A stretch of DNA of 64,000 bases from Pseudoalteromonas shioyasakiensis (GTDB taxonomy: Bacteria; Pseudomonadota; Gammaproteobacteria; Enterobacterales; Alteromonadaceae): contig CP058414.1 in NCBI GenBank assembly GCA_013391845.1, positions 2,652,501-2,716,500 of the forward strand, in the 5' to 3' direction. The position numbers and the translations under genes were made by a program. Shown one piece after another: positions 49,070-58,292 of this stretch; position 1 is the first letter of the stretch, and every line of letters begins with the position of its first letter. The notes beneath the pieces were generated by a model. It was not told where the DNA came from. It ran no database searches and was given only the letters and a program-made list of their open reading frames with translations.

Positions 49070-49093
49070 AAAAAAGGCTGCATGGTGCAGCCT
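49070..49093 (-). terminator. Intrinsic terminator after the 40-residue gene
   Basis: On the minus strand GGCTGCA, four-base loop, TGCAGCC followed by TTTTTT. It has no other same-strand gene to serve than the small ORF at 49119 (or read-through from hvfC). Confidence 0.9.
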
Positions 49094-49332: not shown

Positions 49333-50085
49333 CTATGTATTAGTAACCACAACACCGCGCTCTGCCATAGCGCTTAAGGTATTGAGGGCCCCTTGATACA
49401 GCTGCTCTTGGCTAAATTGAGGAGCATGCTCTGCAACTGCTTGGCATACATCATTTAAATCTGCACCAGGCTTAGATTCAATAATATTAAGCAGTAATGC
49501 GGTCATCGCATTTGTTGATAAAAACTGTACTTCATCATCACTATCACGATAAACCACGAAGTAACTTGCTTGTGCTGTCGGCTCACTTGGTTGATTATCC
49601 ACACTGATAGTATGAACTGGGAAGCTATAACTTAAATTGCGAGCAAACGAACTTAAATATAATGGGGAGCTTGTCACTTTATGAGCTGATAATTTCACTT
49701 CTTGTGCCACCTCTTGAGCAACCGACACATCAAGCTCAACCCATTCATAATGCGCCAGTTCGAACATAAAAGCAGGATCATCACTTTGCATTTCATAGTC
49801 ATTTGCAAGAAAAGTCAAAAACTCCCCTGCTATATCTAAAAAATAAGGTGATTTACAGTCATGCATACTAAAGAAATGCCTAATGAGTCTCTGCCAAGCT
49901 TGCTCAGTATATAAACTTTTTAGCACTGGATACGCAGAGCTGACAAAACCATCCACATTATTAAAAAATAAATCGCGGTAAATCGCCATGCGACGCTCTT
50001 CAACATCGGCTGGCTTCTTATTATTTTCTGGGTCGCGAATATGCTCCATAAACTCTTGCTGTACTTGCGTAAAATGATTAGGCAC
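49333..50085 (-). CDS. hvfC: HvfC/BufC-type RiPP partner protein (DUF2063)
   Basis: 250 residues. The N-terminal 100 residues fit the DUF2063 DNA-binding-like domain name used in databases (FTQVQQEFMEHIRDPENN, MAIYRDLFFNNVDGFVSSAYPVL). DUF2063 proteins are obligate partners of DUF692 (MNIO) enzymes and are thought to bind the peptide substrate. The start overlaps the end of hvfB by eight bases, so translation is coupled. No DoxX-like fourth gene follows. Confidence 0.88.
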   Translation of the reverse strand: MPNHFTQVQQEFMEHIRDPENNKKPADVEERRMAIYRDLFFNNVDGFVSSAYPVLKSLYTEQAWQRLIRHFFSMHDCKSPYFLDIAGEFLTFLANDYEMQSDDPAFMFELAHYEWVELDVSVAQEVAQEVKLSAHKVTSSPLYLSSFARNLSYSFPVHTISVDNQPSEPTAQASYFVVYRDSDDEVQFLSTNAMTALLLNIIESKPGADLNDVCQAVAEHAPQFSQEQLYQGALNTLSAMAERGVVVTNT

Positions 50086-50941
50086 TGTGTTTCACCGTTG
50101 CTTGATTTCGATGAGCAGCAGCCTCTTGCAACGCTCCAATGGTTCTCAGCTCTGTTAATAATTCACTCATAGGAGGAATATTAAAATCACGCTCTAATAA
50201 GGTGGGAAATACCCCATGAATTTCATAGGCTTTTTCGAGCAATTGCCAAACGGGATCGATCACTGGCGCACCATGAGTATCAACGAGTAAATCCTCAGCC
50301 TCAGTGTAATGACCAGCAACATGCCCATAGGCAATGCGATTAGTTGGTAATGCTGCTAAGAATTTCCCTGCATCATAACCATGATTAATCGAATTGACGT
50401 AAATATTATTAACATCGAGCAGTAATTTACAATCCGCCTCTTCTAAAACCGCATTAGTAAATTCAAGTTCCGTCATTTGTTGACCGGGCGCGCCATAATA
50501 AGAAACATTTTCAATTGCAATTGGCTGCTCAAGAATATCTTGAACTTGCCTAATTCGAGAGGCAACATGCTTAATAGCATCTTCAGTAAACGGAATTGGC
50601 ATTAAGTCGTACATGTGCCCTTCTCCCGAGCAGTAACTTAAGTGCTCACTAAACAGACGAACATTATGCTCTTTGAAGAAAGTTTTAAGCGATTGCACAA
50701 ACTCAATATCAAGTGCTGAAGGTGACCCAATCGATAACGACAAACCGTGACATACAAAGGCATGTTGCTCGGTTAGCTGCTTAAATTGCTTACCAAATCG
50801 ACCTCCAAGCTTTAGCCAGTTTTCTGGTGCAACTTCTAAAAACTCAATGGGTTTAGGAACATCGATAAGCATTTCATCAAGCATTTCTCGGCGCAAACCT
50901 AGCCCAATCTGCCCAAAATCAGCTACTGATTCTTTTAACAT
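50078..50941 (-). CDS. hvfB: MNIO-family iron enzyme HvfB/BufB (DUF692)
   Basis: 287 residues, a TIM-barrel DUF692 protein. Visible metal-site blocks: HGLSLSIG, FSEHLSYC, AIENVSYY, LLLDVNNIYVN, YGHVAGH, VDTHGAPVIDPVW, and LERDFNIPP. Homologues (MbnB, HvfB) are multinuclear iron oxygenases; HvfB converts Cys in EGKCG motifs into oxazolone-thioamide groups that bind copper. It lies just after the precursor gene, separated by a terminator-like hairpin; AGGAGG is the ribosome site. Confidence 0.93.
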   Translation of the reverse strand: MLKESVADFGQIGLGLRREMLDEMLIDVPKPIEFLEVAPENWLKLGGRFGKQFKQLTEQHAFVCHGLSLSIGSPSALDIEFVQSLKTFFKEHNVRLFSEHLSYCSGEGHMYDLMPIPFTEDAIKHVASRIRQVQDILEQPIAIENVSYYGAPGQQMTELEFTNAVLEEADCKLLLDVNNIYVNSINHGYDAGKFLAALPTNRIAYGHVAGHYTEAEDLLVDTHGAPVIDPVWQLLEKAYEIHGVFPTLLERDFNIPPMSELLTELRTIGALQEAAAHRNQATVKHSA

Positions 50942-50954
50942 ACTACCTCCTACT

Positions 50955-50977
50955 AAAAAGGGCCTTTACGGCCCTTT
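50955..50977 (-). terminator. Terminator/attenuator between precursor and enzyme genes
   Basis: On the minus strand AAAGGGCC, a five-base loop, GGCCCTTTTT. It lies between hvfA and the ribosome site of hvfB, so most transcripts should stop after the precursor, giving more peptide than enzyme. Confidence 0.85.
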
Positions 50978-50995
50978 CAAAAGCTAAGTGAGCGC

Positions 50996-51484
50996 TTAAT
51001 GGTTAGAACCACATTTACCTTCACCACACTTACCTTCTTTAGCTTTCTTTTTGTCTGCGCCACATTTGCCTTCGCCGCACTTACCTTCTTTAGCTGCTTT
51101 TTTAGCTGCACCGCATTTACCTTCGCCGCACTTACCTTCTTTAGCTGCTTTTTTGTCTGCGCCACATTTACCTTCGCCGCACTTGCCTTCTTTTGCTGCT
51201 TTTTTGTCTGCGCCACATTTACCTTCGCCGCACTTACCTTCTTTAGCTGCTTTTTTAGCTGCACCGCATTTACCTTCGCCGCACTTACCTTCTTTAGCCG
51301 CTTTTTTATCGCCGCCACACTTGCCTTCTCCACACTTACCTTCAGCCGCGTCTAACTGATACCCTGCTTGCATTTGCTGAAATTCAAATGGATTCGCGTT
51401 CGCATCAGTTACTGCAAAACTTGACGCACCTACTACAACCGCACCTAATGTTAATGCAATTGAATTTTTCTTAACTGTGTTCAT
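50996..51484 (-). CDS. hvfA: HvfA/bufferin-type RiPP precursor with 14 EGKCG motifs
   Basis: 162 residues. Signal peptide 1-30 (IALTLGAVVVGASSFAVTDANA), a short linker, then seven tandem units of the form EGKCGEGKCG(A/G)(A/D)KKAAK, giving 14 EGKCG pentapeptides. Every Cys of the mature protein is in such a motif. EGKCG is the sequence modified by HvfB in Haemophilus HvfA to copper-binding oxazolone-thioamides. The product is presumably periplasmic and copper-protective. It is followed by the attenuator and hvfB-hvfC. Reading frames on either strand across the repeats are shadows. Confidence 0.93.
   Translation of the reverse strand: MNTVKKNSIALTLGAVVVGASSFAVTDANANPFEFQQMQAGYQLDAAEGKCGEGKCGGDKKAAKEGKCGEGKCGAAKKAAKEGKCGEGKCGADKKAAKEGKCGEGKCGADKKAAKEGKCGEGKCGAAKKAAKEGKCGEGKCGADKKKAKEGKCGEGKCGSNH
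51006..51346 (-). repeat. Tandem 51-bp repeat array inside the precursor gene
   Basis: Six full 51-base units (17 codons each) plus a partial one. The units alternate mainly between a GAAKKAAK and a GADKKAAK variant, a pattern expected from unequal crossing-over. Such arrays change copy number readily, always in frame. Confidence 0.9.
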
Positions 51485-51656
51485 TCGATGACTCTCTTTT
51501 TTATAAAGGGTTATTAAACAAGACCTGTGAACTACAAATATCTTTCAATTTTTTCTAATTATTTTCTGAAAGTGCGCAGAAAGCAAATTACGATTTATAA
51601 AACAATCTAGAACAGCTAGAATACGCGTCCTAATTTTTGATAAGTAAACAGGTATC

Positions 51657-52685: not shown

Positions 52686-53021
52686 ATGAACAATACTGAA
52701 ATTCAAACAAAGTTATCTGCGGAACTTGCGCAGGTCAGACAACGTTTACTTGATATGCTGGCTAATTCTGAACAAAGCTATCATCAGCAACTACTATCGC
52801 AACTCAAAGATAACCCTCCTTCGGATTGGTTAGAGCTGACAGCAAATAACCTTGGCTCTGAATATCAAATATTGATTGCTCGGATAGAAAAGTTGGAAGC
52901 AGCACTTTGCCAAATTGATATCGGGCAGTATGGCTATTGCTGTGATTGCGAAGAAAAAATCGATGACGAACGTTTACTTGCAGATCCTGCAAGCCAACGT
53001 TGTCGGCGTTGCGCTCCATAG
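52686..53021 (+). CDS. Short DksA/TraR-type C4 zinc-finger protein
   Basis: 111 residues. A helical N-terminal part (about 1-75) precedes the zinc finger CCDCEEKIDDERLLADPASQ ending in CRRC, with two CxxC pairs. It lacks the coiled-coil tip acidic residues of full DksA (151 residues), so it is a short paralogue. It may bind the RNA polymerase secondary channel; not proven. 51 bases after dusC, probably cotranscribed. Confidence 0.85.
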   Translation: MNNTEIQTKLSAELAQVRQRLLDMLANSEQSYHQQLLSQLKDNPPSDWLELTANNLGSEYQILIARIEKLEAALCQIDIGQYGYCCDCEEKIDDERLLADPASQRCRRCAP

Positions 53022-54096: not shown

Positions 54097-55356
54097 TTAG
54101 ATTTTTACACCGTTACGAGCGGCTTTATCTTTGATGAAGGCTGACCAGCTCTTCGCGAAACGACGCGTGCGCGGATCATCCATTGCCTTAGTGATAGCGT
54201 TGTAAGCTTGCTTGTACTTCTCTTGGTAGTAGTAAGCTTCAGCTAAATCAGAATAGATAGTTCCTTTTTTATCAGAACCTAACTCTAATGCCTTGTTCAA
54301 ACGAACAACGGCTGCACTATAATTTTGCGATTGTAAAAGTAATGAACCTGCTTTGCGATAAAGCTCTGCATCGTCATCAAATTTAGCCGCTTCTTCATAG
54401 TATTTAGCTGCTTTTTCAATATCTTTAGAACGGTGGTAATTAGATGCCACTGCGCTGATATTTTGCTTGTTACGCTTAACTTTTTCTTCGTTGATTGCCT
54501 TTTCAAGCACGACTGCTGCTTTGTAAGGAATATCATTTAACGAATAGAAGTTAGAAAGTACTTTGTATTCAACTTCGTTTTCAAAATAGCCATTTTTGTA
54601 GGCAACTTCCATGGTCGCTAGACCTTTTTTGAAGTCTTCGGTTTGTAGGTAGTATTTACCTAAACCAACCCAGGCTTTTTTGTCTTCAGGCCAAACACGA
54701 ACAATCTCTTCAGCTACTTCTACCATGTTTTTGTACTGTTTAAGTTCAAAATAGGCAGCTAGCTTTAATTGGTAAGAAGCTTTTGCAGGTTCTTTTGCCA
54801 ATTCAATTGCTTTGTCTGCAGCAGGAAGAACGTCTTTGTAAAGTTTTAACTCGTAGTTTGCTTGCGCAATACGTGTATAAACTTTGTCGTCTTCCTCACC
54901 TGTGAAGTCCATCCAAGCTGCATAAGCTTCTTTCGCTTTTGCATATTGCTCAGTACCCGCGTACATATCACCTAGAAGTTTTAGGCCTTGCTCTTGGTCA
55001 GCAAAGTTTAAAACGTCAGGCTTAACTGCCGCTGAGATGTGCTTAATAGCCAATTGGTACTGCTCTTTTTGAGCGTACATCTGACCTAAGTAACGATCAA
55101 CTGTTGCCTTATCGAAATCATCCGAAGGATCGATTTCTTTAAGTAGTGCAATCGCTTCATCAAGCTTATCTTCATTGTACAAGTCAAACGCTTTAATAAC
55201 TTTCTTACCAACGCGCTCGCCCATAACTTTAGTTTTTGCTTTTTTACGCGCTTCAATCTTCGCGTAATCTGGCGCTGCTAAAGCAGGTGCAGTGAAAGCT
55301 ACACCTGATAGAGACATAAGAAGCGCAAGTGCAGTTACTTTAGATAAATTTCTCAT
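54097..55356 (-). CDS. TPR protein of the TonB2-type operon
   Basis: 419 residues. Signal peptide 1-27 (ending APALA), then about ten TPR-like helical pairs (for example LDEAIALLKEIDPSDDFDKA and YKQAYNAITKAMDDPRTRRF). Periplasmic scaffold. The same family closes the TonB2 operons of Vibrio and Shewanella, where it supports TonB-dependent uptake. Eleven bases after tonB, last gene before the terminator. Confidence 0.9.
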   Translation of the reverse strand: MRNLSKVTALALLMSLSGVAFTAPALAAPDYAKIEARKKAKTKVMGERVGKKVIKAFDLYNEDKLDEAIALLKEIDPSDDFDKATVDRYLGQMYAQKEQYQLAIKHISAAVKPDVLNFADQEQGLKLLGDMYAGTEQYAKAKEAYAAWMDFTGEEDDKVYTRIAQANYELKLYKDVLPAADKAIELAKEPAKASYQLKLAAYFELKQYKNMVEVAEEIVRVWPEDKKAWVGLGKYYLQTEDFKKGLATMEVAYKNGYFENEVEYKVLSNFYSLNDIPYKAAVVLEKAINEEKVKRNKQNISAVASNYHRSKDIEKAAKYYEEAAKFDDDAELYRKAGSLLLQSQNYSAAVVRLNKALELGSDKKGTIYSDLAEAYYYQEKYKQAYNAITKAMDDPRTRRFAKSWSAFIKDKAARNGVKI

Positions 55357-55367
55357 TACTCGCCTCC

Positions 55368-55985
55368 TTAGTTGCCTTGGTTAAGTTTAAAGTCTAATTG
55401 TACTTGAAGACCAAATTGCTTCTGTGGTTTACCATCGATGATTTTCGGACGGTACTTCCACTTACGTAGCGCACGTTTAGCTTCGCGGTCGAAGATACGT
55501 TTTGGATCGGCGTCGATCACTTCAACATCTTCTACACCACCAACTTCATTGATAGTGAATGAAAGTTGTACCCAACCTTCCTTACCATCACGCGCTGCTT
55601 GCGTAGGGTATTTTGGTTCAATACGAACGATAGGTGTCGCATCACCATCACGTCCAAATGCACCTGGACCACTTAGGCCACCAGCTGTGCTACCCACATC
55701 GATGCTTGGCATATTAAATGACAAACCACCAGTGTTCGGGTTGCTGTTTTCCGGCTGAGGCGGCTGCGGCTTAGGCGGCTGCTTTGGCGGTGGCGGAGGC
55801 GGAGGCGGAACACGCTTCCTCTCCTGCACCTTAGATTCAGGCGGATTCGTCATAATTTCGACTACGATCTGTTCTTTTTGTTCAGTCGCACGATCAGCTC
55901 CACCGGAGATGAGGTACGCCATGAAGTAGAACAAGCCGAAAGTAACTGCCCCACCTGCAATCAGTGAAAACAGAAAACGAATCAT
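55368..55985 (-). CDS. TonB2-type energy transducer
   Basis: 205 residues, shorter than E. coli TonB. One N-terminal anchor (about 5-27), a proline-rich periplasmic spacer with a run of eight Pro at about 63-70, then the TonB C-terminal domain (RIEPKYPTQAARDGKEGWVQ, KRALRKWKYRPKIIDGKP). Short length and operon position mark the TonB2 class. Its ATG overlaps the exbD stop by one base. Confidence 0.94.
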   Translation of the reverse strand: MIRFLFSLIAGGAVTFGLFYFMAYLISGGADRATEQKEQIVVEIMTNPPESKVQERKRVPPPPPPPPKQPPKPQPPQPENSNPNTGGLSFNMPSIDVGSTAGGLSGPGAFGRDGDATPIVRIEPKYPTQAARDGKEGWVQLSFTINEVGGVEDVEVIDADPKRIFDREAKRALRKWKYRPKIIDGKPQKQFGLQVQLDFKLNQGN

Positions 55986-56389
55986 TACTGATCTCCAGCT
56001 ATTGAAATTTTAAGGTTATCACCCGTCGCTTTGATCTGGTCCATAACTTTAACCACTACGCCGTGTTTTGCTTCTTTATCAGCTTGCAAAATCACAACTT
56101 CAGTAGGTTGTTCTGCTAATAAACTTTCAAGTTTAGCTGATACACGCTCAACGTCTACTTGTTGTTTATCAATCCAGATCGCACCGTCAGCACGGATAGC
56201 AACAAAAATGTTTGCATTTTTTTGCTTCGTAGCTGCAGCTGCTTTAGGTTTATTGACTTCGATACCAGCCTCTTTAACGAACGATGTAGTTACGATAAAG
56301 AAAATAAGCATGATAAATACGATGTCAAGCATTGGCGTCATGTCAACCGCTGCTTCTTCTTCTTCACGAAAACGTTGTTTACGTGCCAT
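55985..56389 (-). CDS. exbD: ExbD-type proton-channel subunit
   Basis: 134 residues. One N-terminal membrane helix containing the proton-carrying Asp (DMTPMLDIVFIMLIFFIVTT), then a periplasmic ExbD/TolR domain. It forms the energising complex with ExbB and TonB. It sits 14 bases after exbB and is coupled to tonB. Confidence 0.95.
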   Translation of the reverse strand: MARKQRFREEEEAAVDMTPMLDIVFIMLIFFIVTTSFVKEAGIEVNKPKAAAATKQKNANIFVAIRADGAIWIDKQQVDVERVSAKLESLLAEQPTEVVILQADKEAKHGVVVKVMDQIKATGDNLKISIAGDQ

Positions 56390-56403
56390 ATTTAATTCTC
56401 TCT

Positions 56404-56928
56404 CTAGTGATGAGGCATGCTATCTACAAGTTTAGCTTTCGCCATTCTCGCTCTCGCTTCTAGACGTGAGCTAAAGAATACTCCAGATAGTGCCGCAACC
56501 ATTCCAGCCATTGTTGGGATTGTTGCCATTGAAATACCTGATGCCATTAAACGTGCGTTACCTGTACCTTGAGTAGCCATGGTTTCGAAAACCGCGATCA
56601 TACCCGTTACAGTACCTAGTAAGCCTATTAAAGGACAAATAGCTACCAATGTCTTAATCAACAACATACGCTGATCTAATTTTTCAGACGCTTCAGAAAT
56701 CCATGCTTCACGGATTCTGTGTGCGTACCAAGACGTAGTGTCTTGGCGGGCATCCCACTGAGCTACAATGTTCTTCGTCATACGAGGAAACTCAGCTAGT
56801 AGGAACCAATAGCGCTCAATCATTAAAACCCACATAAGAAAGAGTGCTATCGCGACCACGTATAAAACCTGGCCGCCTGTGCCAACAAAATCCCTGATAG
56901 ATTCCCAGATCTCCATCAGGACTAGCAT
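56404..56928 (-). CDS. exbB: ExbB-type (MotA/TolQ/ExbB) proton-channel subunit
   Basis: 174 residues, the short ExbB2 form. Membrane helices at about 18-38, 90-115 and 130-155, with the conserved ICPLIGLLGTVTGMIAVFE and GISMATIPTMAGMVAAL. Its ATG overlaps the TtpC stop by one base. Confidence 0.94.
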   Translation of the reverse strand: MLVLMEIWESIRDFVGTGGQVLYVVAIALFLMWVLMIERYWFLLAEFPRMTKNIVAQWDARQDTTSWYAHRIREAWISEASEKLDQRMLLIKTLVAICPLIGLLGTVTGMIAVFETMATQGTGNARLMASGISMATIPTMAGMVAALSGVFFSSRLEARARMAKAKLVDSMPHH

Positions 56929-58292
56929 TAGGCTTTCTCCTTCTCCGCGTGAGCAGCGATGATACCTGCGCTTTGCTCATCAAGGACATGTAGAACCGAC
57001 TTACTACGACCCGCAACAATTGAGTGAAGTAGAATAAGTGGTAGAGCTGCAATTAGACCTAACGCTGTAGTAACAAGTGCTAGAGAGATATTACCAGCCA
57101 TGATCTTCGGATCACCTGTACCGAACAATGTGATTGTTTGGAACGTAAGGATCATACCGATTACCGTACCTAGTAGACCTAGTAATGGAGCGATTGCTGC
57201 CAAGATCTTGATGATGTTGATACCAGCTTCAATGCGAGGCGTTTCACGTAAGATTGCTTCGTCAAGTTTAAGCTCAAGGTTTTCAACGTCTTGATTCTTG
57301 TTGTCAGCATAAACCTTAAGAATACGACCCAGTGGGTTGTTTGTATTCGGAGTAGAAAGGTTTTTAAGCTGGCTCTTAATCTTAGTGCTAGTAAGCGCAA
57401 GATCAATGAAACGAACGATGAAGATAAGTAGACCAACAACAAGTAATACTGTGATGATGTAACCTACTTCAGCACCTTGCTCGTAGTATTCCATTAACGA
57501 TTTCTTCTGCGTGTTGATACGTAAGATCGCGCCACGAGTCGGGTCGATGTATACGCCAGCATAGTTGTCAGAAGAAGTATTTTCTAAATCGCTGATACCA
57601 GCTAGGATGTAGCTATCAGGTTGCTTACCTAGTGGTTGGATTGCTTTAGTTTCTGGTGAGTAGATTAAATAACCATCGTCAGTTACTAAGTTGAAGTTAC
57701 CGATACGCGTTACTTTCTTCACAGAAGATGAACCGTCAAGACCCGCAACTTCAGTTTCGAAAGTTGAAACTTTAGCTGACTCAGTCATTTCAGTTTGAAG
57801 AGAAATCCAAAGCTCTTCAAGTTCACGTACAGTTGGAAGTTCTTTCGCAGCAGCTAGTGAGCGAAGTACTTCAGCACGTCCTGGTTTTTCAGCAGAAACA
57901 AGTGATGCTTCGATTGAACCGATTGCATCAGCAGCTGCACGACGTACAACACCGAACATCTCACCTAACGTACCTTGAGCGTTTAAAAGAGCTTGCTCTT
58001 TCTCAGCTAAAGTATTTTCGTTTTGTGCATATTCTTTAGCTAAACGGTCACCACGAGCTTTTTCAGCAGCTAGGTCACTTTTAGCTTTGTTAAGTAACGC
58101 TTGCTTATCAGCACGAGCTGAAAGGAACTCTTGTTCACGTTGCTTATTTAATTTGCCTTCAGAGATACGTTCTTGCTTAACTTGCTCAAGAATTTTGTCT
58201 AAAGCATCAGTGTTTGCATGTGCATTAAGCGCGGTACCTGCAGAAACAGATAGTACTGCTGCAACAGCAAAACCTTTAAATAGTTTCTTCAT
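56928..58292 (-). CDS. TtpC-like ExbB with coiled-coil extension
   Basis: 454 residues. Signal peptide 1-26, a periplasmic coiled-coil region (about 30-130) and a beta-rich segment, then a MotA/TolQ/ExbB domain at about 270-440 with IAPLLGLLGTVIGMILTFQ. This is the layout of TtpC, required for TonB2 function in Vibrio. It starts six bases after the DUF3450 gene. Confidence 0.92.
   Translation of the reverse strand: MKKLFKGFAVAAVLSVSAGTALNAHANTDALDKILEQVKQERISEGKLNKQREQEFLSARADKQALLNKAKSDLAAEKARGDRLAKEYAQNENTLAEKEQALLNAQGTLGEMFGVVRRAAADAIGSIEASLVSAEKPGRAEVLRSLAAAKELPTVRELEELWISLQTEMTESAKVSTFETEVAGLDGSSSVKKVTRIGNFNLVTDDGYLIYSPETKAIQPLGKQPDSYILAGISDLENTSSDNYAGVYIDPTRGAILRINTQKKSLMEYYEQGAEVGYIITVLLVVGLLIFIVRFIDLALTSTKIKSQLKNLSTPNTNNPLGRILKVYADNKNQDVENLELKLDEAILRETPRIEAGINIIKILAAIAPLLGLLGTVIGMILTFQTITLFGTGDPKIMAGNISLALVTTALGLIAALPLILLHSIVAGRSKSVLHVLDEQSAGIIAAHAEKEKA

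Follow-up and report, generated by a model that had tools for sequence, protein, structure and literature searches.

Why are operons for precursors with EGKCG motifs widely kept, though copper does not always induce them? We take up this question of the field with a locus of Pseudoalteromonas shioyasakiensis, which we analysed within a window of 64,000 nucleotides (the whole stretch of DNA under study) and compared with the corresponding loci of other genomes. An earlier note, made from the sequence alone, had read in it a copper-type precursor with 14 EGKCG motifs, modified by the products of the two genes that follow, and had taken it for a high-capacity version built from repeats that could bind many copper ions per chain.

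The chemistry attributed to this family has been revised. The 5-thiooxazole group was assigned to fontiphorin, oxazolin and gonophorin, the structure of oxazolin being corrected in the same study (PMC12668002), and the group that had originally described oxazolin accepts the assignment (PMC13419390). Since another group and the original authors now give the same HvfBC product, the oxazolone-thioamide groups invoked in the earlier note are outdated; NCBIfam still uses the older name.

Results

The precursor gene and its repeats

The hvfA reading frame has its ends exactly at 50996 and 51484 and lies on the minus strand, the plus-strand translation being interrupted by stops (Table 1). Its product consists of a leader (MNTVKKNSIALTLGAVVVGASSFAVTDANA), a short conserved linker and 14 EGKCG motifs, arranged as seven EGKCGEGKCG pairs with seven-residue linkers (locus L024 in the comparison below). 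All 14 cysteines of the whole protein fall inside the motifs, so the count, the pairing and the placement of cysteines given in the earlier note all hold. Read by eye, the leader is likely cleaved after ANA, at residue 30.

Table 1. Features of the hvf locus, with positions in the window.
Feature	Position	Strand	Description
hvfA	50996..51484	-	162-aa precursor with 14 EGKCG; open reading frame and matches to NF050188 and NF050137
Probable Sec-type signal peptide	51395..51484	-	by eye (KK, hydrophobic stretch, ANA); leaders of the genus are similar
Repeat array	51008..51343	-	two EGKCG in each of six 17-residue units, and one further pair at the end
Promoter-like element TGAAA-N17-GGTCT	51521..51547	-	candidate promoter for an ECF sigma factor, 36 nt upstream of the hvfA start (ATG)
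Hairpin and T-run between hvfA and hvfB	50955..50978	-	candidate partial terminator (attenuator)
hvfB, MNIO (DUF692) enzyme	50078..50941	-	NF003818 442.3 bits (cut-off 360); PF05114 352 bits
hvfC, DUF2063 / RRE partner	49333..50085	-	NF050145 307.3 bits (cut-off 142)
Terminator-like hairpin 3' of hvfC	49075..49093	-	likely operon end; 2 sites vs 2.6 expected in shuffles

Scored as a whole protein, HvfA reaches 141.1 bits against the NCBIfam HvfA equivalog model NF050188 (cut-off 95) and 194.5 bits against NF050137 (cut-off 19.5), which bears out its identity as an HvfA-type, MNIO-modified precursor. The genome carries a single HvfA gene and a single MNIO gene. Two other kinds of system were considered and set aside: bufferin 1 (DUF2282), as the precursor had no Pfam match at E 0.001 and, for a BufB maturase, NF050167 gave 268.9 bits, below its cut-off of 310, and methanobactin (oxazolone-thioamide), as the model for the MbnB-type enzyme (TIGR04159) gave 35 bits, far under its cut-off of 325.

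Tandem Repeats Finder described the region 51009-51343 as 6.6 copies of a 51-bp unit (score 502) and, at a higher order, as repeats of a 153-bp unit (score 565), and this repeat structure is far beyond chance. The six full 51-nt units match one another at 41-51 of 51 positions, and the complete identity of units 2 and 5 (51/51 nt) suggests a recent duplication. An AlphaFold2 prediction of the precursor with 31 homologues (pLDDT 39.7, pTM 0.12) supports no fold, so the beta-helix published for the P. byunsanensis protein is neither supported nor excluded for HvfA.

Motif number across the genus and beyond

A six-frame search with the HvfA model (E <= 0.001) found matches in 105 of 108 Pseudoalteromonas genomes. 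None of the 108, P. shioyasakiensis included, passed the whole-protein cut-off in this search, because the repeats are scored piece by piece. We read 98 loci (L008-L105), comprising our own, one from each of 95 other genomes and extra pieces in G066 and G081; they were taken from the matches listed, which leaves nine HvfA-matching genomes outside the comparison. An hvfA reading frame is present in 97 of them (the exception is L104), and 89 of these encode complete precursors, the other eight being cut off at contig ends (five), masked, truncated or a tail piece (one each).

The number of EGKCG motifs in the 89 complete precursors ranges from 8 to 58, and 14 is both the median and the commonest value: 8 motifs (5 loci), 10 (7), 11 (3), 12 (21), 13 (3), 14 (26), 15 (4), 16 (11), 17 (3), 18 (3), and 24, 34 and 58 (one each). 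Shorter precursors than ours thus make up 39/89 and longer ones 24/89. The longest come from L087 (G044; 58 motifs), L072 (G103; 34) and L086 (G008; 24). The number is even in 76/89 precursors, and 1216 of the 1255 motifs stand in tandem pairs or longer runs; from these sequences, the EGKCG pair is the conserved unit of the repeats. Counting EGKCG only gives too few for some members that also use EAKCG: both L058 (G101) and L060 (G036) mix the two, and L060 has 27 KCG, 16 of them in EGKCG.

Relatives whose HvfB is 91-94% identical to ours already differ: some have 14 or 16 motifs, by whole 17-residue units. Two of them have 15 and 17 motifs through one additional EGKCG (L031 and L061), and one has 13, with an EGKCG turned into EGKFG (L023 in G087), which suggests tolerance to losing one site. 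Together with the identical units 2 and 5 and the 153-bp repeat, these differences between close relatives indicate that motif number changes mainly as units are gained and lost.

The surroundings are conserved: hvfB and hvfC accompany hvfA at 91/97 loci and dusC at 96/97. Among 27 named loci from beyond the genus, hvfA lay within the stretch in 23, with 3 to 18 EGKCG. The three Pseudoalteromonas genomes without an HvfA match were examined with HvfB. G041 carries hvfB together with the last part of hvfA, where a contig ends; in G083 hvfB is present, with no KCG repeat within the fetched stretch; and G005 gave no HvfB match. G083 has three MNIO matches (L109, L110 and L111), two of them only 38-39% identical to HvfB, with no KCG repeats in the flanks fetched. 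G005 has only a weak, partial match to HvfX and keeps the ECF gene described below.

Modification genes, neighbours and hairpins

The genes follow one another on the minus strand in the order hvfA, hvfB, hvfC, with an 8-nt overlap of the last two, and both downstream genes score above their NCBIfam cut-offs, in agreement with the succession of DUF692 and DUF2063 genes described in the earlier note. The best named relatives of HvfB include P. shioyasakiensis and P. lipolytica UCD-48B (94%). By sequence, the nearest solved structures are 3bww for HvfB (E 1.2e-72) and 3dee for HvfC (E 1.3e-9). RR at residues 17-18 and RDF at 251-253 of HvfB fit, by description only, the Arg-Arg and Asp-Phe substrate residues of FonB.

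The gene upstream of hvfA, dusC, has the opposite direction, and apt lies downstream of the operon. Just past dusC, a small protein encoded on the plus strand (window 52686-53021) has two Cys pairs near its end and looks DksA/TraR-like by eye. Further on, the minus strand at 54097-58292 encodes, by eye, a TPR protein, TonB, ExbD and two ExbB/MotA-type proteins, which are unrelated to hvfA. Nothing within the window matched Rfam at its gathering threshold.

A hairpin with the sequence GAAAGGGCC-GTAAA-GGCCCTTTTT separates hvfA from hvfB. The surrounding 66 nt fold with -21.3 kcal/mol (z -2.26), and 4/200 shuffles were equally good. The gap measures at least 20 nt at 84 genus loci (seven further loci, with a 16-nt gap, were left out), and 55 of these have a terminator-like hairpin at this place vs 0-3/84 in each of ten dinucleotide-shuffled sets; by the same test 29/84 are without one, and loops and stems vary between loci. 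A generic scan missed it, and it became visible only through the fold and the genus comparison. This hairpin may act as a partial terminator that keeps the precursor more abundant than the enzymes, or may just as well serve mRNA stability. The hairpin behind hvfC is weak on its own, because the number of such sites in the region does not exceed that in shuffles.

A promoter-like element before hvfA

Between dusC and hvfA, the pattern TGAAA-N16-18-GGTC is found at 88/96 genus loci, where its frequency in the rest of these loci would predict 0.1 (L104, which has no hvfA, and L105, which has no upstream DNA, were left out). The eight others have, by eye, CGAAA in place of TGAAA, with the GGTCTACT block. 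At a few loci the element lies farther from hvfA, or the start codon was wrongly chosen. The spacer is variable and the two blocks are constant, as expected for a promoter, and we consider the element a candidate for one. A generic promoter scan listed no such ECF-like element; it gave 8 sigma-70 sites where 5.6 were expected (sd 2.3), which is no clear excess.

Outside the genus, at least 9/23 loci have the element vs 0.16 expected. This count is a lower bound, as four Neptuniibacter starts look wrong and one locus has only 17 nt upstream. The element was seen in Shewanella, Arsukibacterium, Paraglaciecola, Aliiglaciecola, Aestuariibacter and two further Alteromonadaceae, and was not seen in the hvfA loci of Neptuniibacter (whose starts are doubtful), Oleispira, Nitrosomonas and Methylococcales.

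Genes sharing the element

The number of occurrences in the genome is uninformative: the pattern with the final T occurs 21 times vs 25 for the reversed control, so that there is no genome-wide enrichment, and most sites fall within long open frames of other genes. By eye, sites lie just before hvfA and before genes for HvfX, for an MsrA-thioredoxin-MsrB protein, for a TlpA/ResA-like thioredoxin and for a protein that looks like a glutathione reductase by eye, the last with the element 72 nt upstream in our genome (behind L117). We then assessed conservation in the 30 best genus matches for each of the HvfX, Msr, thioredoxin-like and ECF genes.

HvfX is encoded away from hvfABC (G000:C1:2244867-2245574; NF050144 212 bits, cut-off 80). 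This DoxX partner is common in such systems without defining them, and is missing from the fon cluster (PMC12668002). The element, with a spacer of 15-19, precedes 28/30 of its best genus matches vs 0.64 expected. Behind HvfX, in the same orientation, lies a gene of the NAD(P)H nitroreductase family (L125:2287-2883), which may be read from the HvfX promoter. The unlinked HvfX is without a strong match in six genomes that match HvfA (G036, G057, G059, G091, G100 and G101), where it may have been replaced or be dispensable. A second DoxX gene (L107) was considered as an HvfX candidate and rejected, as the scan found no TGAAA-GGTC in its locus.

The MsrA-thioredoxin-MsrB protein looks secreted (PF01625, PF13098, PF01641). 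Its gene has the element in 25/30 matches by script (0.17 expected) and, by hand, in L220 near a contig end, hence in 26/30. The thioredoxin-like protein is under the curated cut-offs of the TlpA and ResA models and over those of Pfam for AhpC-TSA and Thioredoxin; here the element is found in only 13/30 matches, all near relatives.

With the first base left free, the element lies within 450 nt upstream of one ECF gene and of none of the other 11 among the 12 sigma-domain genes of the genome. This ECF gene (G000:C1:1613757-1614269) encodes 171 aa and has close relatives in 108/108 genus genomes. Strict TGAAA precedes 0/30 of its matches, the first base being A or G instead; with any first base the element is found in 29/30 by script (0.12 expected) and in L178 by hand, hence in 30/30, which looks like autoregulation. 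The adjoining gene encodes a DUF3379 protein (PF11859) and not a small zinc (ZAS) anti-sigma factor, so we call the sigma factor RpoE2-like in its presumed targets only and do not count it as a member of the RpoE2/SigE group.

Discussion

HvfA is a genuine, ordinary member of the known HvfA/captophorin kind. We have good confidence in the following explanation of the locus: hvfABC is a captophorin (oxazolin-type) operon, and we further propose that an ECF sigma factor transcribes it as part of an envelope oxidative-stress regulon and that termination behind hvfA is leaky. HvfA would be made with a secretion leader and docked in the cytoplasm by HvfC onto HvfB, an iron MNIO enzyme, which would turn the cysteine of each EGKCG into 5-thiooxazole. 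The modified protein would then be exported to the periplasm and bind Cu(I), probably with about one copper per two motifs. Seven-site fontiphorin took up to four Cu in native MS (PMC12668002); many copper ions per HvfA chain, as the earlier note proposed, are plausible, in a number that is probably below the motif count. Motif number evolves fast, mostly by gain and loss of the 51-bp unit, with 14 as a typical value. The ECF sigma factor would read hvfABC along with the unlinked hvfX and the secreted MsrA-Trx-MsrB, and the leaky terminator would keep the precursor in excess over the enzyme. Gene identities, repeat counts and conserved elements were computed here; the chemistry, copper binding and ECF control come from published relatives, from which we infer modification, copper binding, localisation and regulation of the product in P. 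shioyasakiensis.

The most serious competitor is a plain copper-detoxification operon, in which a copper sensor would make hvfABC respond to excess copper, the sharing of the element being incidental. Under copper stress, bufferins improve growth (PMC12452194); Cu is bound by both fontiphorin and gonophorin (PMC12668002), and mmrABC gave E. coli a slight gain in growth at 2 mM CuSO4 (PMC12538549). Yet MmrA-C were undetected at 0.1-0.2 mM CuSO4 in the latter study, and the element before hvfA is common to the HvfX, Msr and ECF genes far above expectation, which leaves this explanation unlikely, if still worth keeping in mind. It might also be thought that the length of HvfA sets it apart from normal members as an unusual, repeat-expanded copper sponge: it has 14 motifs vs six in H. 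influenzae HvfA (PMC13419390), and its identical units suggest recent growth by duplication. But 14 is the genus median, with many longer and shorter precursors on either side, relatives outside the genus reach 18 motifs, and a member with 58 Cys has been published (PMC12452194). We therefore give this reading, which the earlier note favoured, very little credence; nor is a repeat-built precursor new, since repeats of 17 residues with two motifs and up to 58 Cys were described in that same work. It is equally improbable that the gene is a degenerate relic or that its product is a Cys-rich metal-binding protein which stays unmodified, given that hvfB and hvfC are intact and adjacent, that synteny is kept at nearly all loci and that the motif and its pairing are preserved across the genus.

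Placing the captophorin operon in an ECF regulon, as we propose, has precedents. In H. influenzae, RpoE2 drives msrAB and a four-gene doxX-hvf operon after HOCl (PMC7907618). Meningococcal SigE is autoregulated and shares one operon with hypothetical genes and a DoxX-like gene, with msrA/B under its control as well; the predicted -10 is CGTCTAAH, and the published -35 is unlike TGAAA. Neither H2O2 nor diamide nor singlet oxygen evoked a SigE response (PMC2893595). Under dichromate, Caulobacter SigF drives DUF2282/DUF692/DUF2063/DoxX genes through another motif (PMC3511200). The sharing of the element in Pseudoalteromonas mirrors the RpoE2 and SigE regulons and so predicts that hvfABC is controlled by envelope oxidative stress. 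The logic of the regulon is thus already known, and the novelty seems to lie in the dispersed arrangement, the DUF3379 anti-sigma factor and the inclusion of an unlinked HvfX. The literature matches listed, which mostly do not extend to subscription journals, contain no report of such a regulon in Pseudoalteromonas.

The HvfABC-HvfX system of oxazolin in nontypeable H. influenzae shares with ours the EGKCG pairs, HvfB, HvfC and, probably, the secretion leader (PMC13419390), and the control of the H. influenzae hvf operon by an ECF sigma factor together with msrAB (PMC7907618) would be the counterpart of the element sharing described here; HvfX is inside the operon in H. influenzae, whereas it is unlinked in Pseudoalteromonas. 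The Neisseria SigE regulon brings together an ECF sigma factor, DoxX, neighbouring hypothetical genes from that operon and msrA/B (PMC2893595), much as we propose here, and the ngo genes of N. gonorrhoeae give gonophorin (PMC12668002). In Neisseria, however, one operon includes sigE, while Pseudoalteromonas has four or more separate loci, and the anti-sigma factor is of the small zinc type in Haemophilus and Neisseria and DUF3379 in Pseudoalteromonas. The captophorin systems of fontiphorin (FonABC) and gonophorin (NgoABC) share an EGKCG precursor, an MNIO and a PME1 partner, with 5-thiooxazole established in theirs; FonA has seven sites vs 14 in our HvfA (PMC12668002). The Buf_EGKCG/oxazolin precursors of Pseudoalteromonas, which vary in their 17-residue repeats and are exemplified by P. 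byunsanensis and the 58-Cys protein of P. piscicida, show no difference of substance from HvfA (PMC12452194). Bulbicupramide MmrABC of Microbulbifer likewise comes from a marine gammaproteobacterium, with di-Cys cassettes and genus-wide conservation, but its precursor has five to eight Cys. Its product binds Cu(I), its proteins went undetected whether copper stress was applied or not, and the authors of that study were reluctant to assign it a role in copper protection (PMC12538549).

The hvfABC locus itself is ordinary for the genus, and the regulon is the part worth following. With precursors of 8 to 58 motifs, Pseudoalteromonas also supplies a ready-made set in which the copper bound by each chain could be measured. 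The presence of one element before Msr and HvfX genes points to oxidative envelope stress, which would be a testable answer to the opening question, and these marine bacteria are convenient for testing it. We give roughly even chances to a broader view, in which the captophorin pathway of Alteromonadales is a scattered, co-regulated arm of the envelope response to thiol oxidation (of the hypochlorous-acid type), with the ECF/DUF3379 pair driving hvfABC, hvfX and MsrA-thioredoxin-MsrB. If so, it would be a mistake to test copper alone as the inducer, and the peptide would protect oxidised envelopes, for example by sequestering Cu(I) that oxidants release or make harmful.
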